This document shows, piece after piece, positions 6,681-57,347 of a stretch of 64,000 nt of DNA. The notes under the pieces were generated by a model, which saw only the letters and a list, made by a program, of their open reading frames with translations, did no database searches and had not been told where the DNA came from. The stretch's first letter is position 1; every line of letters starts with the position of its first letter. Made by a program: the position numbers and the translations under genes. The stretch is taken from positions 1,426,001 through 1,490,000 of the forward strand of contig NW_026570235.1 in the NCBI RefSeq assembly GCF_019649055.1, in the 5' to 3' direction. The stretch is from Paramacrobiotus metropolitanus. Taxonomy: Eukaryota > Tardigrada > Eutardigrada > Parachela > Macrobiotidae.

Positions 6681-9600
6681 ATGGGCAATCCAAGCCGGCA
6701 GTTTCCTTCGACATCCAGCAATGGATCGCTTGTTGACGAACAATCCCGTTTCTGGTTGCCTAACAGTGTACCCGCATCACCGACCGTAAGTGCCGCTGTT
6801 ACGTCGTTACACTGGTAACCGCACACACACAAACACACACTCGTAGCGCATCTAATTGTACATTCTGACCAGTTAGCAGCGAACATTCGTTGAAAATTTA
6901 ATGTGCCCTTCGCTTTAATCATGTCATGTGAGCCGCGTAGGGACGATTTCTGAGGATAGATTTGTTTCTCGGTTGTGTTTTCGATTCGATTTTCAGATTA
7001 CATATTCCGATAAGTAAATGCGCCGCTACACTGGCTGCAGTTGTCGTGGGTATGTATGCGTTGCTATGAGTCATCGTTGCGCAGAAGTTCACAAAACGCA
7101 GGCGAAACATCTCTGCCATTGTGACGTTAATAGCAAAGTTGAGTAACGTGAAACACAAAAGCAGCTTATTTTTAGCGTAAACCCTTTTGTCCTTTACGGT
7201 TTTAAGCACTTTTGTATGGAGATGGTATTCAAAACCTTCCTTAGCTGTTCAAATAAGTGGCCTGGTAAGCTAATAAAAATACGGTCAGAACGGAAATACT
7301 ATGCGGCCAGATTGCCAGTGAGCAAAAATCACCCTCGACCAAAAGGTCCAAAATATGAAAAGACATGATAGTTTTTTTCTCGCCTATAACACGGCACGTC
7401 GATTAGGCACGCGCTCTGGCAAACAGCAATAAATGTTCCTTCGGTTATATGTGCGAGAAGAAGCAACGAACAGGATGACGTGCCATGTTTGTGACCTGTT
7501 TTCTGGCAAATCCTAATGATCATACCGATAGCCAGTGCCAGCGCTCGGTTGCTATAGCCAGGCAGCGCAGTGCCGGGCGCTGTCTTTTATGCAACTACTT
7601 GTCAGCTGATCAATGGCTTAACGGGCTGTCTTTGTTCCTTTTTATAGAAAGCGCCGACAAATGCGGTGCCCTATTTCGATCTATACGCGCCAGCGAAGCC
7701 GATGCCCGGCACCGGTCAGCGCGATAGCCATTTGCTACAGCAACAGTCCCGCCGGCACTCAGTGACCGCATCAGCCGGAAGTCCGGTGCTGTCGTCGCAT
7801 AAACTGTACAGCAGGAACAATTACGATGCCGTCTTTGTGGATCTGGACGACACCGACACCAGCAGCAATTCCACCGCCTCGCCGACCATCCACCGCAAAA
7901 TTGGCCGCTCCCGTAGTGATCCCATCGCGCCGGTCGCTCTGCAGTCGCCGGTGCCGCAGTCCGGCACCATCCAAGCGAGCCGCTACAAAACCGAGCTGTG
8001 TAATACCTTCGTGGAAAACGGGAAATGCCGCTACGGTGAAAAATGCCAGTTTGCCCATGGACTGGATGAACTGCGCAGTATTGCGCGTCATCCCAAGTAT
8101 CGCACGGAAAAATGCCGCTCCTTCCATACGACAGGTAGCTGTAGCTATGGCCAGCGCTGCCATTTCATCCATCTTGAGCCGCACGGCCAGTTGTCGTCGT
8201 CGTCGTCTTCCCACCATGATTACCCAAGCGTTCCGCTGACTGCGCCGGCTGCCAGCGGAAATGCCATCATTTCTCAGCCGCCTGGATCGAAGTTCGTTCA
8301 CAATCCCGCAGCAGCCGCATTGGCACTGCAGCAGGCTGCAGGCGCCGGACGACCACGGGCTGTTTCGCTAAGTGCGTTTTCACATCCGATTCCAATTGCA
8401 AACGGCTTTATTGCCGACCACCATGCTGAACTGGGTAGCTGCTCGGATAGCCGAACGACGAGCATCTCCTCGGGATCATTCCCGTCCACTCCGCTATCTC
8501 TGTCGCCGGGTGTCGATGGACACTGCCATTCGTGGTTCACGGCTCATCAAGATTTTCCTCTTGGATCATGTGAGTATCCTCGTTTTATGTGCGAGTAATT
8601 TTCTCTTTCTGGAAATGTATTACGTAGTGTGGATTATGCATTCGCAAATAGCGGTACTTCTTGAATAGTAATTGCTATTTTCTAGATTCTTATTATTTTA
8701 AATAACCCTTAAAATTTGTTTGAATTTAAATTTAGTTTCCTTCCTTATGGCTTATTAAAAGTTAGTAATAAAAACATTTCAGTGAGATCAGCTATACGCA
8801 GAAGAAACGCTACGGCAATCTGTGCCAAATCGATTGCAGTTTATTTATTGCATAATGAGTTGAAACTTTAATTTGATCATCAGATACGGTTTTCGCGCCG
8901 CTTTCCGCTTTAATGCGTCTTCGTTTTCAGTGAGATAATGACATGGTTGTCGTGTTCTCGTGAACGTCCTAGCCGTTCGATCTAGGTTATTACAGAATAT
9001 TTTTTGATAACTACATCAGTTTTTTGGATTGTCTGTTTTGTCTGGACCTGCGTGGACAGATTTGAGTTAGATTTGAACAGTGTGTTGCGAAAAAGCAGGT
9101 TACGATTGGATGATTGTGTAGTAGCGCAGTGCCAGTTTGTCTGTCGAGTTTTATGTTAACTTTGGACTTTTTGTCTAGTTCAACGCAGTGTCGAAAGCTG
9201 TGTGCTGATATTCAGATAATAATTTTATGGCTTGGGACAAAGTTTATAATTCTGACTCAATAGTGCAGTGGGTAAACAACATTTGTACGTTGGGCTTTCG
9301 GTTATAATGGTAGTTTCAAGAAAATGATTATTATGCAGCTAGTCCGAAGAATTTTATTAACCAATTTTGGGAGAAAAAATGCTGGCAGTCCTTATTTTGT
9401 GTACATGAAAATTTAATAGGAATAAGGCAATTATGCTGTATAATGTAATGCACATCAACATAACTTTTTAGCACAGCTTGATGTCAATTTGGTGTTCTGG
9501 TATTTGCAACGCATGAGTGATGCGAAATTGTAGATAGCCGATGTTGACAGCTTTACTATATGATCATCGAATACAGCCGGGCTCAGAAATGGTGCAAAAT

Positions 9601-28767: not shown

Positions 28768-31700
28768 ATGCTGAGCATCGGATTTTTTCTAAATAAACCA
28801 GCGATGAGGATTATCCTTTGGACATTGTTTACTACGCTAAGCATCGTCAATGTTGCAACCTCCGGTACGTTATGCACATAAACCTTAATTTTAATGTCGA
28901 AGTAGTAAGAAATACAAATTTTGTATGGGTACGTTCGTAGCTTGGCATATTAGCCTAGCAAGCCACCAGCGCTGTTCCAGCACAATTTTGTGTGAATATT
29001 ATAAATGAGGTTAAAATTATAGATTCACGGCTTAAAACAGCAGTTTTTATATCAGTTTGCTATTAAGCGCAGTTTAGCGAGCCGAGCTACACTAAATATG
29101 GTTTTATTTTAGCAGACAAAGGCAGCAGCTTCTGCAAAAGCAGAAGTATTCAAAGTCGTAGCGCTTTTTACTTAAAAGTAATACATGTTGTAGTGACATT
29201 AGACGTATGTCAAATTACAAGCGCTATTTATTAAATCAACGACGTCCTGTATTGTAGGACAATTAGTTTCCGGTGGTAGTTCAAACTTTTCCTGTCCTAC
29301 AAACTTCTGTCAAAATGGCGGCATATGTTATGGCACTAACGACGACAGCAGCGCGATGCCTGAATACTGTCCCGATGGATCCATTCTTTTTGCGCATGGA
29401 TGCTATAAAGTACATCGTGAAAAAAAGAATTGGTCACAAGCCGCCGACTATTGTGCACGGTCTAACGAATCGCTGGTCACCGCGCATGATATCACCGAAA
29501 GACTGTTTTTGGAAAACTTCGCCCGAGGGCAAGACCTCCCAGGTATGTTTTGTAGAAAACCTAAGCCAAATCCCCCAAAAGGTCAGGTACACAGAAAGAA
29601 AACAGGAAGATCAATACTAACTTCCGGAAATTAATTTTTTGCAGTAATGCAATTATAATTACAGCTCCCGTGTTTGATTTTTACATGGGCTGCTTAATAT
29701 TTTTTGAGCTACAGAAATTTTATTTTTTGAACACTTATAAGTTATAACGACGCTATCGCCATTGATTCGAGACTGCAGCACGTAGCGATGAATTATTTTT
29801 GGTTGGATAATTACAGGACGACCGCATGTCTGGAGTGGTGGCATTGCCAATCAAAGTGCCGTATTTATTTGGGCTGATAGCGGTGAACATGTGAATTTAA
29901 CGATATTTGACATGAAAATGACACGGTATCCCCGCCAAACCTTCACACCGGGGAACATGACGAGAAGGATAAAAAGCAGCCTTCTACCAGCCCGTGACCA
30001 ACGTATATTGTGCTTGGCACTTGACGGAAGCGCCAATTATACATCCTGGATCATGACGTCGTGTACTGAGGCTAATTTCCCATTTATCTGCCGACGAAAA
30101 GCCGAGCGCTGGCCAGGTATGTTATTACTGTCAATTCATGGCGGATTTTCTAACATATAAAGTCGATAATTAACTGACAGGAACTTTTCTTCGGGATCAT
30201 ATTAATTGCCTGTTTCTTAAAATTGCTCGGCGGCAGCAATAAAATGTCAAAGGCACAGCAATAAATCATTAACTCATTGGCGTAAATTGGTTTTTTAAAA
30301 TAGCTGCGAAACGTAAATGGGGGATCATTGGCATCTGACAGCATCTTCCATTCAACAAAAGAAATGAATGGGAAGTCAATTTCCTCAAACGCTCATTCAT
30401 TCCCATTTTCAAGGGTATATAACACCGCCACCGAACCCAACCGTAACGCCAGCCATCAAAAGCCGGCTTTACAGTGGATGCGGTGGTGCTCAAAGTAATT
30501 TAAATTAAAGAAATCTCAACCAGCCCATCCATCCATCGTGCTCCGAGATTTAATGTTGAATTTTAAAGTTTACTATTGAACTTATGACACTGGTTACAGG
30601 GGTTGAATTTTTCATCATTTTAACTAAGAAACACTTTAGAATGGTCAAAACTGAGTTTTGAGTCGATATCGCAGGATCTCCACATTCGCGAACGGTAAAA
30701 GCCAAAATAGGGGTAACCTTAACCGGTTAACCGAATCAGTCAGCAAAGATGCAAAAACATCTTTATTGAAAACGTAACGTCTGTGTTGCCGAAATTAATG
30801 TTCTTGAAAACTGACTCACTAAGCAGTTGGTCCGAAGTGGTCTGCCAAAATAAACATTTGTATCATTTATGTGTCATACGCGGCAGGTAACTACTACAGT
30901 AGTAGTTCGTCCCACGCATTAATGACTATATACATATAACAAGCATTAGTGACTATAGCGAGCTGCTTGCGATAAATTAAATACATCGTTCCATTATTTT
31001 CAAAAAATAACCATCGCAACGGTTTGCTGGTATAAATATAATAAATCTAATACTTACTTAAATAATCATCCCATGCTTTTAAAAAATGAACTTCTTTTTC
31101 TGCATCGGTTGCTATACGGAAACCAACAACGGAATAATTTCAAACGTATGATGCGTATGCCGGCATTTCCTTTACTTGCATATTTTAGTACATAAAATGG
31201 TACATAATAATTAATTAATTCTTCTGTTAAAAACTGCTAAGTATTTTATTGGGGCTGTGATTGTTTGCATTACAGACCTCTTGGGCACTTTCCCCCATCA
31301 ATGCCAATGTGGTCTAGAATTTGAAGGGCTGGAGTGTGAAAAGAAACTCGACACCGGTGGTAAGTTGTGTGTTAGATAAATACGACCCATGTTATTCATC
31401 ATTTTTGGCAGATCAGTTCCTGGTTGATTACGTGTACGTAGGGTGTGAAGCACACGTGCATTATGTGATACAAATATGTCTGCGTAAAATAACATTACAT
31501 TAAAATGATACTGCATTGCAGTGGTGAGCTATGGCTACGGTTTAAAATGTGCTGACGACGTGGCGGCCCTCTCCTGTCCCTCGGAGCCGCAGGATCTGCG
31601 CATTGAGATCGAGTACGCCATGTACGGTGTCATTGTTAATCAGCGTGCGGTGTGTACAGCGCACAGCACCGGCGAAATGGCCGTGTTCGATCCCCAGTGT

Positions 31701-34700
31701 TCCCTGCCGGCCGTTAAATATTTACGAGAAAACTGTCAAGGCCGCAAGGATTGCATTGTCAAAATGTCGGCAGCGGATTTCCGTGTAGATCCCTGCCCGG
31801 CCACACCCAAACAGCTACAGTACCGGTATCGCTGTGTGGACAAAACGCACAGTTGTGGTGCCAATCAGTTTTACGTGAACAATGCCTGCTACGAAGTATA
31901 CAATACGAATAATAAAGCCACGTGGAATGAAGCACGCTCGTACTGTCAGGTGTACGGTGGGCAGTTGCCGGTGGTGACTGCCGCCGAGGCGGAAGGCATA
32001 ATGCGGGAAGCGGTGGTCACGGATCGTACCGGATACGGACAGAAATCACGTTTCAATGGGGAGAAGAGAGTGAATCTGTGGCTGATTTACCGCGAAGCCG
32101 GCGAGTCAGCCGATCAGCTGGGTAACTTGTCAGAGGCGGTAAATAATCAATCTCTGGGGAAATACACCGACCGCTCACGGGATAAGTGTGCGGCTTATAA
32201 TGTCAAGCTGGGCCGCTCGCTGGAGAAAAGCGAGGTGGCGTGGAGTTCTGTCAACTGCAACCGGAAGCTGGGATGGATTTGTAAATTTCCCACATTCTCA
32301 CTGGCGGAAAGCATACCACTTACCGGTGAGAATGTGTCGGTGCATTCGCGCTCCGTGGCGCAAACAAATTATCCAAAATCGGCATTTCCGGGGAATTTTA
32401 TGAGTACCGTGGTTCCACCGTTGAATCTGACGTTTCCCACCATAACGCCTATTCCGCAAATCCCTTGGTTTACCAATGTGTTGACGTTTCCCACCATGCA
32501 TCCGCCCAGTGACCGGATTACCGCGTTCACGGTGGTCAACAATGGTCAGGAAGAGACCGGGTTACAGTTTGCGACCACACCGGCGCCGGTCCCCGACAGC
32601 AGTATGTGTGAATCGCGATTAATTAAAGATCATGTCTGGGGGAAAACCGAGCCGGGGTTCGTTATCCAGCCCTGCAGCGACCCGAAACCTTCCAGTCGAA
32701 TAAGTATATCTTTGATTGAAAACGTCCGACACGTTGTGCAAATGTACGCATCCGATCAGTCGAGCCAATTTGACAAGAACGTCGAAAATTATCCTTACGG
32801 TAAGGAATTCTGTCAGCCATCCTTTCGTAAATTAATAAAAACTCTGGTATCAAGTTATGCGTTAAATGGCGGTAAAAGTCGTATTGTAATTTTTTTTAGT
32901 TTGGTGGCTTTAAAAAACCATAAATAGCAAATAATATTTAAGCTAAAAAGTGCGTAATTGTACTGGTTTTATTTTTACACAATTACATACTAATCTGAAA
33001 TTATTTTCGTATAACACGCTGTGAAAACTGTCCATAAACTGAAACTGTCCACCTTCTTGAAAAGGTTTTTCATTTTGGATGTGCACGAAAAAAGATAACG
33101 AGTCGAAACCGCGATACTATCCAGAAAGCGGTCCTGTTGATGACCTTTGCACGGCAGCAGCTACACCTGCGATTACAGTAACAACATTAATGACGACAAC
33201 CGACGAGCCGGTGGCGGTGCTAAAGGCAACAGCACAGCAGTTTGCCAATTACACATCATCCGGCAGTATGAACGGTTCTGAAATACTCGAAGCGTGTAAT
33301 TTTCTCCAAGGACTCTTATCAGAAAAGCAACGCCAGAGCAAAGCGGCAGCGCGCACTATGGATTTTGATCAAACGTTCGCTACAACGGAGGAATTCGTCA
33401 ACGTCGTCTCACAGAGTGTCAGCAATATGCTGGCAGATAACCATAAACGTGGTTGGATTGAATTAGACGACGGTATAATTCAAAAAGTAGGCATGGTTTA
33501 TCAAGATTTTTATTTACCAGTTTTGCTTGCACAGACCAAAGATCGGACGCTGCGACCAGCCTTATGAAGGCCGCGGAGGATTCCACATTTCTTTTAGCTA
33601 ATATTAGCCCAGAACAAATTCGGAATACATCAAGCTTTCAAAAGCGCTTACAGTATGAAAATATTGGTATGCGACCTTGGCATATTTTGGTGCAATTGCA
33701 TTGTAACAGCCGAACAAACGCAGCATACATACAACCTATAATTACTGTGTGTTAAAAACGGTATTGTCAAACCGAAACAATATAACGTTATGTATGCAAT
33801 TTACAGACATTCAGGTGGTTGTGCTACCAGCCCAAACTATAGATGCTCCGATGACCTTTACCTCTGTTTCCGCGGATCCAAATTCGTCTAACGAGATTTC
33901 CGACCAAAGTGACGCATTGTTCGACGTTATAGAACTTCCTCCGTCGATTAAAAACTTCAGTGACAAACAAGGAAATGTTCGAGTTTCCTTCATACAGTAC
34001 AGTCTGACACTGTCTGCCCTACTCGCTCCACAAAACAATACTCTTAAGTAAGCCGTATTTTTATTTGTTTAAGCTGCGCAGAGAAATACACAGGTCAATT
34101 AACAATTAATCAGCTTTAGATGCACTAGACGGCGTAAATTTGATAGAATAGTTACGCATTTTATTTAAAAATCCTAAAATCGATTAATAACACCAAGAAA
34201 AAAGAAGCGTACGACCGTACATTATAAAACCAGGTAAAATTTACAGAAATGGTAAATTAAATGAAAAAACATTCGCAACTAAGACTTTGAAAGTAACATA
34301 AACCATAGAGAGAATAAACATACGCCGCTTCGCTTTGCTCCGCTCTGTATGAGAGCGGAGCAAAGCGAAGCGGCGTATGTTTATTCTCTCTATGCATAAA
34401 CCTGGCGGTCATAGATTTTAATTTACATCAGAAAATTATTTTATTTTAATAAATGGAAGAGATTGCTCTTCCGGAATGAATCAGATACAATTTTGTTTTT
34501 TTTGTTGCAAAACTTTTTGTCTACGTTTGGTAACGTAGATTAATTTCACCGGTTGTTGCAGTGCGACAAACTCCACAACCGGACAATTAATTGTCAACTC
34601 CAAAGTTTTATCAGCAACTGTGCTGGACAGCAACAATCAACGGCAGTCGGTCAGTCTGGATGAAGAAACCGTAACTCTGACATTTAAAAACACATTTACG

Positions 34701-37210
34701 AATGGTTCCGCTGCAACCTGCGTATTTTGGAATATGCGTGATCCAACCAACTCCTTCTGGGATGTCACCGGATGTTCATTAGTCGACCATTTGTCCAATT
34801 CCACGCACACCGTTTGCCGATGCTCTCATCTGACAAATTTTGCAGGTACGTCACTGTTTAAGCTCCTTGCCCATTCGCCTACATATATTGCAAATACTGA
34901 ATAAATTGCCTAACGAATTATAATTGTTAGTATTAATGGACATTAATGGAGCCTTGGCGACACTTGGAAAAAAGGATCGTCTGGCACTGAACATCATTTC
35001 CTATATTGGATGCATTATCTCCATTGTCTGTCTTATTCTCTGCCTCATTATCTTCACGTTTTTCCGGTATGTTCTGCGTATAAACGTGTTTATAGGAGGT
35101 CGCATGATGTGGAAAGTGCTTACTTCTTGTAACAACACGGACTGCTGTAAATGGATTTTCTCAACAATGATGCGGTTCTTTTCAGGTCATTGTGGTGTGA
35201 TCGTGTGACCATACACCGTAATTTAACGTTCTGCTTACTGATCGCACAGTTTGTTTTTGTTCTGGGCGTGGATCGGGTTCACAATCAGGTACTGCACAAC
35301 TGCAAACAAAAATATTTAACAAAAATCTAGCAATTTTTCACCATTGGAATTTAGTGCAATATACAGTTACTCGTAACCGCGTAAATTAAATTTCAAACAA
35401 ACCATGCGAATATCGACCATGCGACCATGCGTAAATTTGACAGTTGAGACAAACGCACAGCTGACCTTTTATTTCAGATTGGGTGTGCCATCACCGCTGG
35501 GATTTTGCATTACACACTGTTGGCGGCATTTGCGTGGATGTTGTTGGAAGGGCTGCAGCTGTACATGATGCTTGTGCAAGTTTTCGAGGCGGAAGAATCC
35601 CGAAAAGTCTGGTATTATGCGTTCGGTTATGGACTTCCAGGAATTATTGTTTCTGTTGCGGCCGGCATTCGACCGGATCACTATGGAACGGATAAATAGT
35701 AAACGCAGTCTTCGTTTTCTTAAAATTAATTCTTCTGCTTTTTATTTCATGTTTAAATTTTCCATTTTATTAGCGACAATTAATTAGGAAGCGATAACCA
35801 GTTTACGTCCAGCCTGAATTGTTTTTTTTTAAGCTGCTGGTTGCTGCCGAATGACGGGTTCGTGTGGAGTTTTGCCGGTCCTGTGCTGGCAATAGTTTGC
35901 GTGAATACGGTTTTCCTAGTCATTGCGTTGCTTACGGTTTTCCGTGTGCGGAATCCAGTGCGAAAACAGAACAATCTTGAAAAAATGAAGTAAGGAACCA
36001 CAAGTATTCAGATTCGTTGGTTCTAAAAGTGTCTTGATTTAACAAACCTTGTTATGTTTCCAGAGGATGGTTGCGAGGATCGGTCATGTTGCTCTGCTTG
36101 TTGGGAACAACATGGTTATTTGGATTTTTATACATCAGTCACGCTTCAACCTTAGTTTTTGCTTATTTGTTCACTATATGCAACAGTCTCCAGGTAAACG
36201 GACAAATCCTGCAAACTGTCCTAATCCAACTGCTCAGTTAGGCTAGTTAAAAATTGTGTGAACTATCCACTCAAACCAATCTTTTCGCGTAATGAGAACT
36301 ATACTGTCCTGTCACGCATATCAATGGTTATGTTGATGAAACGTATTTTGCGCATTTCTTAAAATATTTGTATGTGCGTTTTTACAGGGGTTTTTCATTT
36401 TCGTTTTTCACTGTGTGATGAACGAGAAGGTTTTTGGCACGGTGCAAAGATATATCCGGCGTTGTTCATGGTGTCCACAATGGTGCAAAGATTGTATCGG
36501 AACACCGAAATCTTCTAAATCATCATCCGGAAAAGAAAGCAGCTCTCAAGTAAGCACAACCGGCATAACGCATCGTTTTGTTGTTTATAAAGTCACTTGT
36601 TTAGCAAGCAAAACAATTAAATTTTTCCGCTGAAGCGCTAATATTTTATTACTTAAGCGCGAAAGTGACGCAGAAAATCTGCTATTCCCTATAAAAGATA
36701 ACTATTAATTTCAAAACCAAGTGTTAATCAATGCAGTAAAACCGTATTACAGAGCTCACGTATGTTAGATGTACTCGTATTTTGTACATCATAGTTGAAT
36801 GGTGAAGGCAGTCTGATTTTAATACTATAAAAACCATTAATTTTTAGTCCCATCAAGGCAGTATGGTTTGGAATTTTTTGAAGCTGCGCCGACTTTCCCA
36901 TGAATCGAGCATCTCATCCCAGTCGGCGATAGCCAAACAGCTATCGACGGAAAGCGATTACCTTAGTAAATCATCTTCCTTTAAAAGCAACAAAAGCCGA
37001 CGGGGCCAGCGTCCACCCATAAACCACCACAACGGTCTGAACAATATTTCCGACATGACCACGGAAATCGCACTGAAGAAACCGGGGCGAGCCCGAACAG
37101 TGAGTGACGATCTGGCTGATGTGGAACGCTCGGTGATAAAAGTCGGTTTTTCTAATCCCGCATTTTCTCACCAGGAATACAACGCCAACTCCGGTGGTAC
37201 TCGCGTTTAA
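28768..37210 (+). CDS. latrophilin-like adhesion GPCR with two C-type lectin domains and a CTLD-split EGF domain
   Basis: Sixteen exons: 28768-28864, 29258-29542, 29817-30116, 31276-31359, 31522-32703, 33065-33472, 33535-33666, 33807-34047, 34562-34845, 34931-35066, 35186-35288, 35478-35698, 35834-35989, 36064-36193, 36388-36549 and 36848-37210. They total 4284 nt (1427 aa) with every phase matching. Domains: signal peptide 1-32; first EGF half 45-56; C-type lectin domain 70-219; second EGF half 237-248; SUEL/RBL lectin 265-360 (DPCPATPK); second C-type lectin 367-509; Pro/Thr linker; HormR from 618 (HVWGKTEPGF); GAIN; GPS with WNM, CRCSHLTNFA and predicted cleavage L1000/T1001; seven helices; Ser-rich tail ending GTRV, a class I PDZ ligand. 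The Stachel start TNFAVLM matches vertebrate latrophilins. EPN, QPD and WND calcium/sugar motifs are absent from both C-type domains. Latrophilins are G-protein-coupled adhesion receptors of synapses and tissue polarity. Confidence 0.9.
34304..34394. repeat. perfect hairpin, 43-bp arms, 5-base loop, in a receptor intron
   Basis: Arms 34304-34346 and 34352-34394 are exact reverse complements around gtatg. It lies in the intron between exons 8 and 9 of the adhesion GPCR, in otherwise AT-rich DNA, and its centre is GC-rich (ccgcttcgctttgctccgct). It could be a hairpin-type MITE; no target duplication is evident. Confidence 0.95.
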
Positions 37211-43400: not shown

Positions 43401-46350
43401 GATAAAACTCCTCTTGGTAAAATTTTTTCTTTGGAATAATTAAAGGATATAATGCGTTATATGGTAGCGCAAGATTGTCTGACCGTGTTCTCTATGGCAT
43501 GGCGGTAAGTCAATGTTATACGCCTTTATCGTAAGGTAAACAATACAGTACTGTATTACCCACTGTCCCGTCTGCAGTATTGCTCCGACGTTTCATATTC
43601 TCATCAGGTTGATTAAATAAAATTTAAGAACTGGAGCGTCTGCCGCCATATTCAGTGCGGCGGCTGCTCGTTTAATTTTTAAATGATAGCTCATTTTCCA
43701 TCCGTGAAGGTGCAGACTGGCGTACTCGCGCTATGAACAATCGCTTGTCGAGTGGCCTGACGCCAAATGAGGCTAGCACTGCCGTATCGATCGGAAGCTG
43801 TGTAAAGTGATGCGTTTTCCAAAGCCCCATTACGGTTCAGTTAACACCAACTTTTGTCCCTTGCACCTTTTACCGGCAGGTCACCTGCCCGGTCTTTAAT
43901 ATGAGACTTGTTATGCCGATACGATGAATTAAATGTAAACAGAAATCTGAATAATTAATTAACATAATGCAATTTCGACCGCAGAATTCATTTGAATACG
44001 ACGACGGTATACAATGGGATTTATCTACGGAGGCGCACGCCAAATAGGTCGGATGAGACTTCATTTACTGAATAAATTTCACCGCTGCGTTATACCAGTG
44101 GAACAACTCTATAAGCACACAATAATATTACATTAATTAAATTTCGTTACAAAACTCTGCTCGCCTCGCATCTTAGCAATTTATTTACCCGATTAGTGTC
44201 TTGCAAGGTTGCTGAAAAAGTGTCCATGACAAAACCAAACGTTTACTGAGCATGTGAAAGGCAGCCCTAATCATATTTAAATTACCTCGTAAGACTTTAT
44301 AAAGTAGCTGCTTTTCCCACGATGACAGCATAATCTGCGGCGTTTAGCTACTGACTTTGCGGACAGTTTATATATGATTTTGCCTTTGGGTGGCCTAATG
44401 GACACCGTATCGATCACAGTCAATGAATTCAATAACAGCGTGAACAATATTTAAGGGTTTATGTGTGACACCATTAGATGAAATAATCAAATGCAATATG
44501 ACAACCTTTGAATAACTTTAAGCCTATTTGAGATGCAAACAAGTTAACTTAACACCCTGTACAAACGTCACATCAACTGTGCTACGGGTATGCAGTATTC
44601 TATGTATGATATGAATGTCTATCAAACCGATAATCCGCAATCGAATTAAAATAATGACCGTATGGTTGCAGATACGCATGTCTTAAACTTTTGTTGCTGC
44701 GTTCCGAATTCACGTTCGCACAGTGAAGGTTAAATTTTCTGTTTTATTTAACTTCTTTACATTTCTTACCGAAATTTTGTTTCTAGCGTCAAATACTTTG
44801 TTAAACTTTTACGGATAATAAAATCTGTGGAGTACTACAGAAATACTGAGCCGTTTATGCACATTTACTAAATAATAATTGTTTTTCAGCCTGTGACCTT
44901 TCGATTACCCAGCCATTTGCCATTTGCAGTTGTCATTTGTGAAATTTTATTGAGCTTTTGTTATTTGACATTCGCACAAGGTAGATGCGGACGTCTGCAG
45001 ACTAAACGTTCGCCGAATGAATAATAAGTGCGAAAACGATCGCAAGTTGCACCGGCTTCGTATCAACTTGAGATTTCAACAAGCCTATTAAAAGTTTGAA
45101 AAATCATTAAGTTATTTATAAGTAGTTGATATTTTCAATTGCAATCGTTTAAAGCTGACAGAACGAGAGTGGCACTACAGAACCGCTTAACCACGGGAGA
45201 GAATTGCGCTGTGTTGGTCCGCTGTGGTGTATGTGTGTTGACTACTGTGCGCAATCGTTGATCGTTTGGCAAAACATTCGCAGCGTGCCGTTATTGAAAG
45301 GCGGGGTTATTCACAGTTAAATAAACATTTGACATTTATTCAAAATCCATTACATTATTGATTGGAGGGCATGCATATTGTACATATGTACTGCTTGGAG
45401 ATGACGCTACTTCATCCAGAAGAATGCAATTTTCACAGTGGATGCGGCTGCCAGTGCAGGCGCGCGCGCGTATAGAGACCCGGCGCGCGATATATGTGAA
45501 GAGGAAAATTATCCTGGGCTCAAAACGTTTTGAGTATGCGGCTGTTGTGCATCCACAGATGAACCTATCACAAAGTGCCGAGATATCTCTTGACGTACGA
45601 GTATCATTCTGAGTGTTCCCCCTCATCCCGATCTCATCTAGTACAATCCAGTGCAATCAAGTGGGATTGCAGTGGGAGGATAAAAAGATAAAATCACAAA
45701 GGATACAAGTGGCTAGCGAAAATCAACGCAACATGCAGCAGCTGACAAGTGTATCTATGCTTGTACTCTAAGATCTTTTAGGTATAGGTGTTAAAATTCA
45801 CTTGTTCCACTGTAACTTCAAATACCTATTTCTTTTTAAGGTTTTTCATAATGAACTGTATAGTGAATGTTGCTTACTAAAACTGACAGGCGCAGTATCC
45901 AGTCTGGATATATCTGCTATCGTGCACACTAACGTTTAAAACCGGCTGCTGGTTGTCAGTACACAGCTTTAGCCAGTTGCTTCAATGGCGCTTTCTATGT
46001 GGTGGATTATATACGGCTAATGGTTATTATTGGTCAAAGACATAATGTCGCCTGCAGCGTGATTATCACCGTGTGGATTTTCTAGTTGTCGAGAAATTTC
46101 AGTAAGACATCAGCGTAGCGGTATTCATCGCGGTGATCCGTGACCACGTTTTCTTTAGTATTCTGCTTCTAAATGCGCAAAGGATGACAGTTTTTTTTCT
46201 CGCGCATGTTTTACTCCGACTAACTGTCGTAATTCTCTATGCGCGCAGTTTATCGGGATTGGCATTGTAGTCTGCTGAATATGTGAAATCTTGCATTTCT
46301 GCGTGGATTATTATATGATCACTACTGGCAAGTACATATAGGGAAGAAAA
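40404..46350. other. 6-kb region, probably first intron and regulatory DNA of the NK2 gene
   Basis: No convincing internal exon. One stretch after an acceptor-like aaggtgcag near 43711 stays open for 18 codons in the phase of the 40090 exon (LAYSRYEQSLVEW) and could be an alternative terminal exon; this is weak. A local tandem duplication (tataaagtctaac) occurs near 40776-40810. Confidence 0.4.
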
Positions 46351-49224
46351 ATGTTGTATTACAGATCATTGGACGCTGGTTCAGCGATGACACTGCACAA
46401 CCTTAACGCTACTGTCTCCAAGTCGTCAAGTAGCTTCCATGTGAAGGATATTCTCCAATTACCCGAAAGTAAACTTAATGGCGGAGGAGGATATGGCGAT
46501 GGTAATGTTAATACGACAACGACTGGTGTGGCAGTTCCGGCCAGTGGCGGTGGGGCTACGGCAGCGGCGGCTGCAGCAGGGGCAACTGCAGCAGCCGCTC
46601 ATGCAGCCGCCTCGGCTATTCATACCAGTGTTATACAGTCAGTGGGCGCAAATAACCATAGTCGAGCAACCGGTCAACAACAATCACCACAACCACCGTC
46701 TTCATTTGCCGCACTGGATCATTCCTTTCCGCATTTCGCTACCGGCAATCTTACCATGGACCAAGTGTCCTTCATGTCTTCCACGATGCCCTATTCATAC
46801 TATATAGATCAATCGGGTATGGATAACCCGTACACCCGATGGATGCATCATGACCCTTATTATTCCGGTAAGTGTTGATTTCTTTTACTTATTTTTGTTA
46901 CCTCATCGTATAGCAGTAGTCGACATACTTTAAAAATATAACAACATGCAAGTACATATAATTAAAGATTAAGGAAACATTTTTTGCATAGTGTTTAAGC
47001 TTCTACTTTGCCAACTGGCAATCTGAAAAGTGACGCAAAGTAGCTTATGATGAGCGCAATGAAGCGCTCTCTCTTCTTAAAGTATCAAACCAGTGTTGCA
47101 TGGAAATTAAAAGATAAGTCAGCAATGTGCCATAATTGCATTATTAAAAAGGGCTCTTATTACCAACAGGCAGCAATTTTTTAAAAGCTGCATAGAATTG
47201 TTTTTTGGAAGCTACACCTTAATAATTCACATAAAAGAATGCTGATAAGAGAAATACGACAGCTGTGCCACGGTATTAGCGTGTCCTTTAAAAGGACAAG
47301 TAATAAGTAAGATTACGCACTTGCCGGCGCGTGTTTGTGCATAAGCTAAATTAAGTATTGACTATTACAAAGTAAGCTGTCGTCACTTAATGTAATCCAT
47401 GTAATCGGAAGTTGAATCAAGAAATTAGCTGGCCGCACACTTTCCGATAAAGGATAATTGCTAGTTGCAGTTTTAACGATAGGGACACGAACGCCGAACG
47501 TGTCAACATTGGCGTGACCCTTTTGATAGAAATGTACATGATGTGTGCGCGCGCCGAGCCTATAGTGCTGACTATTAAATGCAGGTTATATGCAATCCAT
47601 CAACACAGCCAACTCCGGTCTCGCTCAATTATCCCTTGACGTTCACCACACGATTCCCGAATCAACAGCACCCGCTGCTCCCGTTAATCCCGCGCTCATA
47701 CATTCCCCATCCACTAATGTGCCGGCACCGCCGTACGTTAGCGCCAGTCCGGTGTCTGTGTGTAAGGAATCCACAACGCCCAATATAGTACACATTAACA
47801 GCGTCGACAGTAAGCACGGCCTCCTGGATGAGGCGCCCTTTACATCGCCGCGCTCTAGTGCATCCACGCATGAAGTTCCTAACGATCTGTCCGATGATTC
47901 CAATGATGATATTCTGGATGATAAGGGCGGTGAGAGCGGTGATGAGGATGGGGATTCCGATACGGATTCCAAGAAGGGCGACGACAAATCCGATGCCGAT
48001 GGGAAAAAGGAGAACGGGGATCCGCCCAAAAAGCGCAAACGCCGGGTACTGTTTACCAAAACACAGACCATGGAACTGGAAAGACGTTTTCGTCAACAGC
48101 GATATCTGTCCGCTCCGGAAAGAGAACACCTTGCGAGCATTATTCGTCTGACCCCGACTCAAGTATGTGATAACGCATGACTGTTTGTGCCTTTGATTAA
48201 ATGTGCGCAGCGTGTAAATAAATTTAAACCAACTCGTGCCAATGAATTACAACTTCGCAACGGCTCAGGCATTATTAAAATTAAGCATCCACCTAACAAA
48301 AATAAGGCACGAGCACATGTACAGGCTGTACTGTACTAGTACCGAAAGTTGCGAACAGAAACATTTCTGCGAAGACAAACAAACATTTTCAAAGCTTTCA
48401 TTTTAATGGTCACAAAACACAAATTTTTACTTTAACCAGGCACTGATAATATAGCTATATGCCCACGTATGATGGATAATTTGTACTTAACCTTTAGCTG
48501 CTCCATGTACGATAGTAAATACATAAATTCTATCCTAAGGAGTTTTTATAATATTGCTTAGTTATTTAATAATGTGATACTTTTACTTTTATTTACTAAT
48601 ATTATTAATTAAATAACCGACAGAGTAAATAATAACAATTATTTCCTGTTCCATTAGGTGAAAATATGGTTCCAGAACCATCGTTACAAGACTAAGCGAT
48701 CTCATAAAATGGACGTAAACCACACATATTCACCAAAGCGCGTTGCCGTCCCAGTATTGGTACGCGATGGAAAGCCCTGCGCACCGTCATCAACTGGAAA
48801 TTCCTGCCTAATGAAATCCCCCACGGGTATGCACCACATGATGCATCACGATCCATTAGCAGCGGCAGCGGCCGCTAACGCCGCTGCGGGTCTACAAGCC
48901 ATGGCCAACAGTGCAGCCGGTGCCGGTGGATTCTACAGCAGTAATACCTGTATGGGACCCGGCAGCCAAATGAGCGGATATGTCACACCAATGAATGCAT
49001 CCGGCGCAGCCGCCGCTGCCGCGGCCAATTCAGTATTGCAGGGCATGTCGCAGCATATACCATCTTCCCTTAACGGTTTTGCCAATCCCTGCATGAATCC
49101 CTTCCCCCAGTCGCACCATCTCAGTAATATGGCCATGCAAATGAGCAATTCATCCAATTTCACCCATTTATCCATGCCGCATCCGGGTGCTAACCAGCAA
49201 CGACCTTGGCCGCAATGGTCATAA
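46351..49224 (+). CDS. NK2.2/vnd-type homeodomain transcription factor
   Basis: Exons 46351-46867, 47585-48162 and 48658-49224; 1662 nt, 553 aa, phases 1 and 0. Numbering starts at the ATG at 46351. The N-terminus carries a TN (tinman/Eh1-like) repressor motif, [11 protein letters not shown], then Gly/Ala-rich runs. An acidic stretch ([12 protein letters not shown]) precedes the homeodomain at about residues 322-381: [19 protein letters not shown] then [14 protein letters not shown], with W48, F49, N51, R53 and the NK2-specific Tyr54. The intron falls between homeodomain positions 44 and 45. After it comes the NK2-specific domain [14 protein letters not shown], identical to that of vertebrate NKX2.2, and a C-terminus rich in Met, His and Ala ending RPWPQWS. 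NK2.2/vnd factors bind CACTTNA-type sites and pattern the ventral/medial nervous system. An upstream exon at 40090 may add about 100 residues. Confidence 0.9.
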
Positions 49225-55359: not shown

Positions 55360-57347
55360 TCACGGAGTCAATATCTTGGGTTTCTCGGGTTTATCTACAG
55401 ATTCAACGGGATAATCGTTTCGGGCTTCGGGCGGACAATCCTCTTTCGCAACGGGTGGTGGTGGGTGTTCAAGAATTTTATCGATTAAACCGAATTCTAA
55501 GGCGTCTTTCGGGCTGAGAAACCTATCTCTTTCCATAGCATCTTCTACAAAATGCCGCAATATGAATGAATACTGGATCAAATCCTACATCGCTACAATT
55601 ATAGTGTGCGATTGAATTTGTATTTGTTTCGAATGTTTTTCCGTAATACCTGAAAAAAATTTCGAAACAAATACAAATACTAACTTAAAAACTGCTGGCA
55701 AACAAAATCACAAAAGTGTCGTACAAAGTAACGCAGCATTAACTTAGTTCTCTCGATGCTTTGAATTCTTACCTAGTTTTTTATAAGGCTGTCCAGTATG
55801 CTTGACATAAATATTTATAAGTTGTCGCTTTATTTTAATTATTTCTTCCGCGTGGATCATGATGTCCGTGGCTTGGCCCTGGAAAAAAATATTTGTAACA
55901 AGAACTGGTTGTATACCACTGCCAACAAAAAAAACGTGCAAACCCAAAACATACTTGATTAATGTATATTTTTTTGTTAATTCAGACTCCTGATTTATTT
56001 ACACTACATACTACTTAAGGTTAAATTTTAGGCACATCAAATGACAGTACGGAAACTTCAGTGCGCTTAAATTTTTAATAGGGACGAAAGATCCACACTG
56101 CCCAACAAATATCTCCGACACCCAGTCATATCGAAACAGCCGCTGTCTGTCGAGCGCCAGGACATACCTGTGCCCCGCCGGATGGCTGATGGATCATAAT
56201 ACGAGCGTTGGGCAAAGAATGCCGCATTCCCGGTGCCCCTGCGGCCAGTAGAAGGCTGCCCATACTGGACGCCTGGCCGACGCACCACGTGGCCACCGGC
56301 GACTGAATATACTGCATGGTGTCGTAGATGCCCAGGCCGGCCGTCACAGATCCACCGGGACTGTTAATGTACATGTGGATGGGCTTCTTGGCACTCTCCG
56401 ACTGCAGGAAGAGCAACTGAGCAACAACGAGACTTGAAAGATCATCGGTTACCTGTAGAACAAATAATGTACTGTATATGAATTCAAACATTAAAAAAAT
56501 AGCACACACACTTCATCAATTTCGCCATTTTGCCAAACAAGATGCTCCAAAATTTTTACAAATTACAATCGCTAACTTTTGCACCCATGATTCTAAAAAC
56601 AACACTTGTTGCCGGAGAAAATTCAAAGCTATAAGGCATTATTAGCATTTGCGAATAACAGTTGTAACAAAAGCTAAATATTTAGTGTTGAGCTTAATAC
56701 GCTCAGACGAAGAGTTTTTCATATTATTCTGCAGTTTTAATAGCAGTAAGTTCCTTATCAAAAATAAAAACTACGGTGAGAAATTAAGCTGATACAAATA
56801 ATAAGCTGTTTGTTGTGAAAGAAAATCAAAATTTAATGTAGTATGACTATCAATAGCAGCCTACAGCACAAAACAGAACCATTCAAAATGAAAAAATAAA
56901 GAAGTAAACGATGGTATTGGTAAGTACAAAAAATTGTTATCATAAATATTCATGTACAAATTTGAAATGACGCGAAGGCAATAAATGATTGGCGCGATTT
57001 CGGCCCTGAACGTTCATCACTTCCATTTGAGCGGAGTTTCAGTTATTCTTATTTTTAACAGCTGTCCACAGGACGTGAAAATTATAAGTATCACTCACCG
57101 GACCCATTAAGCAAATTATGCGTTCCTTAAGCAGACGGGAATAAATATCGTATGCACGCTCGCCACGTCCTGTCTGCTCTATTACAATGGGAACGAGAGG
57201 TGCGCTGCGGAGGACGGAAGCGTGGTACGTTCGCAACACCTGTTTGGTTCGCCATGATACCTGCCCAGAAAACCACGTACAGTCACCAGGGAACCATGTG
57301 AAACCACGAGGCCTTACCCGAGTTGTCAGCTTTGAAACAAGGAACAT
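55360..57347 (-). CDS. CLPP: mitochondrial ATP-dependent Clp protease proteolytic subunit (ClpP)
   Basis: Four exons: 57347-57099, 56452-56168, 55878-55773 and 55544-55360; 825 nt, 274 aa (human 277), phases 0, 0 and 1. The N-terminal 45 residues are Arg/Ser/Thr-rich with aromatics and no acidic run, as expected of a mitochondrial presequence. The mature part starts near [19 protein letters not shown]. The serine-protease triad is complete: Ser146 in GQASSMGS, His171 in MIHQPSGG and Asp220 in AMERDRFLS. The handle region and the [11 protein letters not shown] segment are conserved. ClpP forms a double heptameric barrel in the mitochondrial matrix that degrades unfolded proteins delivered by ClpX. 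The C-terminal tail is Pro/Glu/Lys-rich, as in other animals. Confidence 0.96.
55616..55678. repeat. inverted repeat with 18-bp arms in the last ClpP intron
   Basis: Arms 55616-55633 and 55661-55678 are exact complements (atttgtatttgtttcgaa) around a 27-base loop. Confidence 0.85.

Follow-up and report, generated by a model that had tools for sequence, protein, structure and literature searches.

In the window, a 64,000-nucleotide stretch of the Paramacrobiotus metropolitanus genome, a receptor gene was found whose product, judged by its sequence, is a latrophilin-type adhesion G protein-coupled receptor (GPCR), and whose outermost module is probably a single EGF domain carrying a complete long-form C-type lectin-like domain (CTLD) in the loop between its third and fourth cysteines. 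Pull on the outer domains is believed to switch adhesion GPCRs, and the way in which the head is mounted therefore bears on how such receptors work; the nesting may fix the ligand-binding head rigidly at the outer tip of the receptor.

Gene model and domains of the receptor

The gene model, which was rebuilt from splice sites, spans positions 28768-37210 on the plus strand and comprises 16 exons encoding a product of 1449 residues:

28768-28864, plus strand: exon 1, start codon at 28768 or 28804, hydrophobic leader that by eye resembles a signal peptide; ends in phase 1
29258-29542, plus strand: exon 2, phase 1-1, first half of the EGF (C45, C50 and C56, with CQNGGIC), then the start of the inserted CTLD (C70, C81, C98)
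29817-30116, plus strand: exon 3, phase 1-1, remainder of the inserted CTLD (C193, C210, C219)
31276-31359, plus strand: exon 4, phase 1-1, second half of the EGF, CQCGLEFEGLEC (C237, C239, C248)
31522-32799, plus strand: exon 5, SUEL domain (galactose/rhamnose-binding type, residues 273-360), second CTLD (CTLD2, residues 387-511), then a linker
33095-33472, 33535-33666, 33807-34047 and 34562-34845, plus strand: exons 6-9, GAIN and GPS, with HL|TNFAVLMD
34931-35066, 35186-35288, 35478-35698, 35834-35989, 36064-36193 and 36388-36549, plus strand: exons 10-15, seven-transmembrane (7TM) region
36848-37210, plus strand: exon 16, cytoplasmic tail, ending in SGGTRV and the stop codon

All 15 introns of this model have the form GT...AG, and the spliced frame contains no internal stop codon and one terminal stop. 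The weakest ends are those of exon 6, with a donor of 1.5 bits and an acceptor lacking a pyrimidine run, while most other exon ends are good. The coordinates, the residue numbers and the phase 1 that the first-pass annotation had assigned to the four introns flanking the EGF-CTLD exons were all right when compared with the spliced translation. Additionally, intron 8 harbors a perfect inverted repeat at 34304-34394, composed of two arms of 43 bases and a 5-base spacer, which is probably a small inverted-repeat transposon; 45 matches to related hairpins were listed in the genome, its own site included and both strands counted.

The assignment of the receptor relies on its SUEL, GAIN/GPS and 7tm_2 domains together with ADGRL3 as the best match. 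The SUEL domain (PF02140) scored 41.7 bits against a cut-off of 31.4 (1.5e-10), and GAIN (PF16489, residues 726-952, 5.1e-21) and GPS (PF01825, residues 984-1028, 5.5e-13) were both recognised. The 7tm_2 match at residues 1045-1279 covers positions 3-250 of the 250 in the profile (1.4e-66), and Lectin_C was matched at 1e-11 across two stretches, the best of which, at residues 387-511, corresponds to CTLD2 (8.5e-10 alone). When the part from GPS to 7TM was compared with solved structures, whose constructs differ in length, ADGRL3 (1.3e-87) ranked first, followed by ADGRL2 (2.1e-80), ADGRD1 (2.1e-62) and ADGRL4 (1.4e-60), which, with the SUEL domain, upholds the earlier description of the receptor as latrophilin-like. 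The GPS sequence HL|TNFAVLMD, with its motif position at 1021, is intact in sequence, cleavage itself being putative. The tail ends in TRV, which we take to fit a class I PDZ-binding end. No olfactomedin domain appeared in the Pfam result for the receptor protein, and no Pfam family matched the 90-residue stretch where the hormone-receptor (HRM) domain was sought; in invertebrate latrophilins, according to the portion of PMC6422961 covered here, the HRM domain is at times degenerate or missing.

Cysteine pattern and profile matches of the probable divided EGF

The cysteines of residues 1-256 fall into three groups, at 45, 50 and 56, at 70, 81, 98, 193, 210 and 219, and at 237, 239 and 248. The outer six fit the order of an EGF domain, with spacings of 4, 5, the insert, 1 and 8 residues, and its third and fourth cysteines (C56 and C237) are separated by 180 residues, of which 13 form the linker from C56 to C70 and 17 that from C219 to C237. 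Counting in the spliced translation thus bore out what had been noted at first, namely three EGF cysteines in exon 2 (with CQNGGIC), three in exon 4, a gap of about 180 residues and normal spacing within each half. For comparison, 37 EGFs collected in 7 stretches of this genome have spacings of 4-7, 4-5, 8-13, 1 and 8-10, within a picking pattern that itself allowed only 3-9, 4-6, 6-14, 1 and 8-10.

The number of cysteines is also informative. The SUEL domain contains 8, each CTLD 6, the remaining ectodomain 8 and each EGF half 3. Since the halves hold three cysteines each and the inserted CTLD is self-sufficient with its six, a disulfide probably spans the insert; with pairing confined to the EGF cysteines, at least one such disulfide is unavoidable, an argument which assumes that they do not pair with the eight other cysteines of the outer ectodomain. 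The predicted disulfides would be 45-56, 50-237 and 239-248 in the EGF, and 70-81, 98-219 and 193-210 in the CTLD.

When the halves were joined without the CTLD, 40 distinct PDB sequences were matched at E values of up to 1, and these are, by name, mostly EGF-bearing. The matches to DLK1 (1.9e-6) and Notch1 (2.6e-5) refer to whole chains in which several EGF repeats are summed, their best single repeats reaching 0.001 and 0.027, respectively, and a lone EGF of the factor VII type was matched at E=2e-4 among the PDB sequences. On the Pfam EGF profile (PF00008), the join aligned with positions 1-30 of 32 and scored 15.2 bits, under the cut-off of 21.5, with E=0.027 for the whole sequence and no single stretch reaching 0.05 on its own; two further joins gave 13.7 and 13.0 bits, also under this cut-off. 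In a control with ten proteins, neither each EGF half alone nor any of four joins with a hand-scrambled partner produced a Pfam EGF match, and the unscrambled joins aligned with profile positions 1-30 when trimmed (E=0.079) and with positions 1-12 when 22 linker residues were kept (E=0.13). As the match lies under the Pfam cut-off, the module is EGF-like by pattern and not by Pfam membership.

A profile was also built from the 37 EGFs of the same genome, and the halves were shuffled 2000 times each, with and without HMMER bias correction. Without the correction, the trimmed join scored 30.7 bits and the one that retains 22 linker residues 22.1, against 18.4 for the first half and 10.1 for the second, while the genome's own EGFs, which themselves built the profile, scored 45.3-63.3. 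The 30.7 bits were reached by none of the 2000 shuffles of the first half and by 2 of the 2000 of the second; when the cysteines were held fixed, 2/2000 and 82/2000 shuffles did so, respectively. With the correction, the first half, at 17.3 bits, lay between the trimmed join (19.2) and the join retaining 22 linker residues (14.4); here the trimmed join was equalled by 0/2000 shuffles of the first half and 37/2000 of the second, and by 3/2000 and 274/2000 with cysteines fixed. The corrected 19.2 bits against 17.3 for the first half alone indicate that joining contributes little. Therefore, the first half reads as a convincing EGF half, and the second is degenerate, being supported mainly by its cysteine spacing.

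Such results invite another explanation, that the half-motifs are decayed flanks of the lectin domain, a truncated EGF on one side and an unrelated CxC...C segment on the other, which share no common fold and serve as linkers. The EGF match under the Pfam cut-off, the degenerate second half and a bias-corrected join that barely exceeds the first half are what would be expected of decayed flanks; however, both sides keep the exact order and spacing of an EGF, each flank has three cysteines where the other counted regions have even numbers, and the patterns CxCx8C and C4C5C occur only three times each in the 127,996 codons of the six-frame translation of the window, one occurrence of each being that of the receptor gene. 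On this balance, the explanation by decay is considered unlikely. One EGF divided by a CTLD, as proposed in the first-pass annotation, still accounts best for the cysteine pattern, the cysteine counts and the profile matches, although the join stays under the Pfam cut-off and its second half is degenerate, and a nested EGF is thus graded as probable.

The domain between the halves was claimed at first to be a complete CTLD, and this was sustained by a Pfam Lectin_C score of 23.2 bits, a narrow pass over the cut-off of 22.6, and by six cysteines of its own, which fit the long form of the fold. EPN or QPD and WND are the motifs of calcium-dependent sugar binding, and none of them was present in either CTLD of the receptor, making a protein ligand, or a sugar bound via another site, likelier. 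Such absence is common in this genome, given that, of 9 other CTLD-bearing frames compared, only one has EPN, and their sole WND-like string, a WDN that this frame also contains, lies off-site by eye. CTLD2 is also of the long form, with six cysteines, and shares the large exon 5 (31522-32799) with SUEL, no intron lying between them. As for the fold itself, the termini of a CTLD lie close together and the pairing C0-C0', C1-C4 and C2-C3 is standard, according to the portion of PMC6468738 covered here.

Splicing of the proposed nested unit and its occurrence in the genome

Exons 2-4 have AG/GT at every border, and introns 1-4 are in phase 1, with one base of the interrupted codon on the upstream side. 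This phase had been put forward as a sign of domain shuffling, an argument weakened in two respects: introns 5-7 of the gene are likewise in phase 1, so that the phase is not peculiar to the EGF-CTLD part, and, although intron 3 falls at the 3' edge of the CTLD, no intron marks its 5' edge, which is located within exon 2. Among the 3754 GT sites of the window, the donors of introns 1-4 rank within the highest 0.11-0.85% on a matrix made from the 15 donors of the receptor gene itself, these four included; when each was left out of the matrix in turn, they scored 10.2, 11.3, 11.3 and 7.6, the 99th percentile being 8.6. A transcript from which the CTLD is removed so that a simple EGF remains was considered and rejected, because the two GT sites bordering the linker scored -5.6 and -8.3 bits, whereas the true donor reached 11.9; with no usable donor in the EGF-CTLD linker of exon 2, a lectin-free EGF would be hard to splice.

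A different possibility is that exons 2-4 together form a removable cassette and that the main transcript runs from exon 1 directly to exon 5, from the leader to SUEL, the nested unit being then rare or absent. Exon 1 ends and exon 5 starts in phase 1, so that the skipping of exons 2-4 preserves the frame, and neither EGF nor CTLD is listed in the genome for a linked latrophilin paralog, although such lists miss exon-split domains. Against this stand the strong donors of introns 1-4 and the fact that the exons are open and domain-bearing, and the cassette is regarded as quite improbable. Finally, that the exons of a separate lectin gene lie by chance upstream of the receptor without being spliced onto it is very hard to credit, even with a model known here from genomic sequence alone, considering the 15 regular introns, the open frame up to a single final stop and the fact that exon 4 continues the frame of exon 2 and completes its motif.

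The nested unit, taken as the preferred reading, was looked for in the whole genome, which consists of 533 contigs with a total of 169.8 Mb. Five matches were listed when the 223-residue EGF-CTLD unit was searched in six frames, three of which are the receptor's own exons and two of which are weak (E 0.011 and 0.99); the former of these weak matches was rejected as a second copy of the unit, since it is a plain CTLD. When 100 of the 106 CxNGGxC patterns in the DNA were compared by eye with the 109 listed CTLD matches, obtained by a search that overlooks exon-split CTLDs such as the inserted one, only the receptor's own pair lay less than 9 kb apart. The nearest other pair among the matches listed is on another contig (C39), at 9.3 kb and on opposite strands. 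Many of the CxNGGxC patterns are due to chance, as indicated by the 48 occurrences of the backward control pattern. Additionally, at least six contigs carry both 7tm_2 and CTLD matches, and among the matches listed, as assessed by eye, the closest pair is that of the receptor gene (2.9 kb), the rest being at least about 45 kb apart.

The latrophilin paralog mentioned above is found on the contig of the receptor gene itself (C15), at about 1372-1380 kb on the minus strand, approximately 75-80 kb away and in opposite orientation. It has SUEL and 7TM matches, a GPS-like sequence recognised by eye and 46% identity to the receptor over 135 residues of the 7TM region; EGF and CTLD are absent among the matches listed for it.

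Comparison with known proteins, proposed action and origin

Latrophilins (ADGRL), which include mammalian LPHN1-3, fly Cirl and worm LAT-1 and LAT-2, have SUEL (RBL), GAIN, GPS and 7TM in common with the receptor described here, which differs from them by an EGF-CTLD unit before SUEL, a second CTLD after it and an HRM domain that was not recognised. Laminin-type EGF domains can hold an inserted laminin IV (L4) domain, which is also a globular insert in an EGF-like module; however, the EGF subtype and the inserted fold are others, and laminins are matrix proteins, not receptors. In selectins, thrombomodulin and lecticans, a CTLD and an EGF are adjacent, in tandem there and nested here.

The lack of olfactomedin is shared with other invertebrates, and several invertebrate latrophilins carry EGF, Ig, LamG and FN3 domains, as stated in the portion covered here of a survey that spans tardigrades and a nematode (PMC6422961). 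The closest published match found is Bu_11124 of the nematode Bursaphelenchus xylophilus, a single protein that has, like the receptor, two CTLDs together with GPS and an invertebrate 7TM of latrophilin-like type; the comparison is one of text and not of sequence, and in the part of PMC9085898 concerned, its description names neither EGF nor SUEL and states no order of the domains. LAT-2, the second latrophilin of C. elegans, is expressed in the pharynx and excretory system (PMC13197933, in part). The term C-type lectin is absent from the main text of PMC6629964 and from the first 300,000 characters of PMC13197933, the lectin passages in the part of PMC6510184 covered concern the rhamnose-binding type, and the covered parts of PMC5531438, PMC7308585 and PMC8191316 contain nothing on EGF-CTLD nesting. 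The literature search returned no report of a nested EGF-CTLD latrophilin, which is weak evidence of novelty given that it covered mostly open-access papers and no animal protein databases. The original statement that no latrophilin with this arrangement was known is therefore overstated, since the two-CTLD nematode protein and EGF-bearing latrophilins had been published, and the nesting alone is unreported in the literature searched, as far as the portions of these sources covered here extend. An annotated LAT-2 entry could already display the same domain order.

In an EGF, a two-stranded hairpin is framed by cysteines 3 and 4. Considering that the ends of a CTLD are adjacent, the lectin could replace the tip of this hairpin and leave the EGF unbroken. 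The lectin head would then be held by two strands and the 50-237 disulfide instead of a single flexible linker, and it may bind a partner, probably a protein, on an adjoining cell or in the matrix. Such a nested mount could relay pull or twist via SUEL and CTLD2 down to GAIN, for which self-cleavage at HL|T is predicted, and shedding of the outer region would present TNFAVLMD as a tethered agonist to the 7TM region. In the simplest scenario for its origin, a CTLD unit would have been inserted into a phase-1 intron that interrupted an EGF, the upstream intron being lost afterwards, with the consequent fusion of EGF and CTLD in exon 2.

If the arrangement is true, a lectin within an EGF hairpin would represent a natural domain insertion with an inbuilt disulfide clamp and would show that exon shuffling yields nested, and not merely tandem, domains. 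It may tentatively be proposed, with considerable doubt, that the nested head is characteristic of an old class of LAT-2-like latrophilins with two lectins, common to nematodes and the animal of the window, in which the rigid mount is conserved and turns the pull of a ligand into removal of the autoproteolysed ectodomain. Should nematodes share the nesting, it would provide a defined and testable trait of the little-studied receptors of the LAT-2 type.

Elsewhere in the window, frames at 46342-49221 seem to encode a homeobox of NK2-like appearance together with alanine-rich runs, a long frame at 7648-8595 contains two putative CCCH zinc fingers resembling those of TIS11/ZFP36, and a frame at 56129-56512 on the minus strand resembles the ClpP protease.
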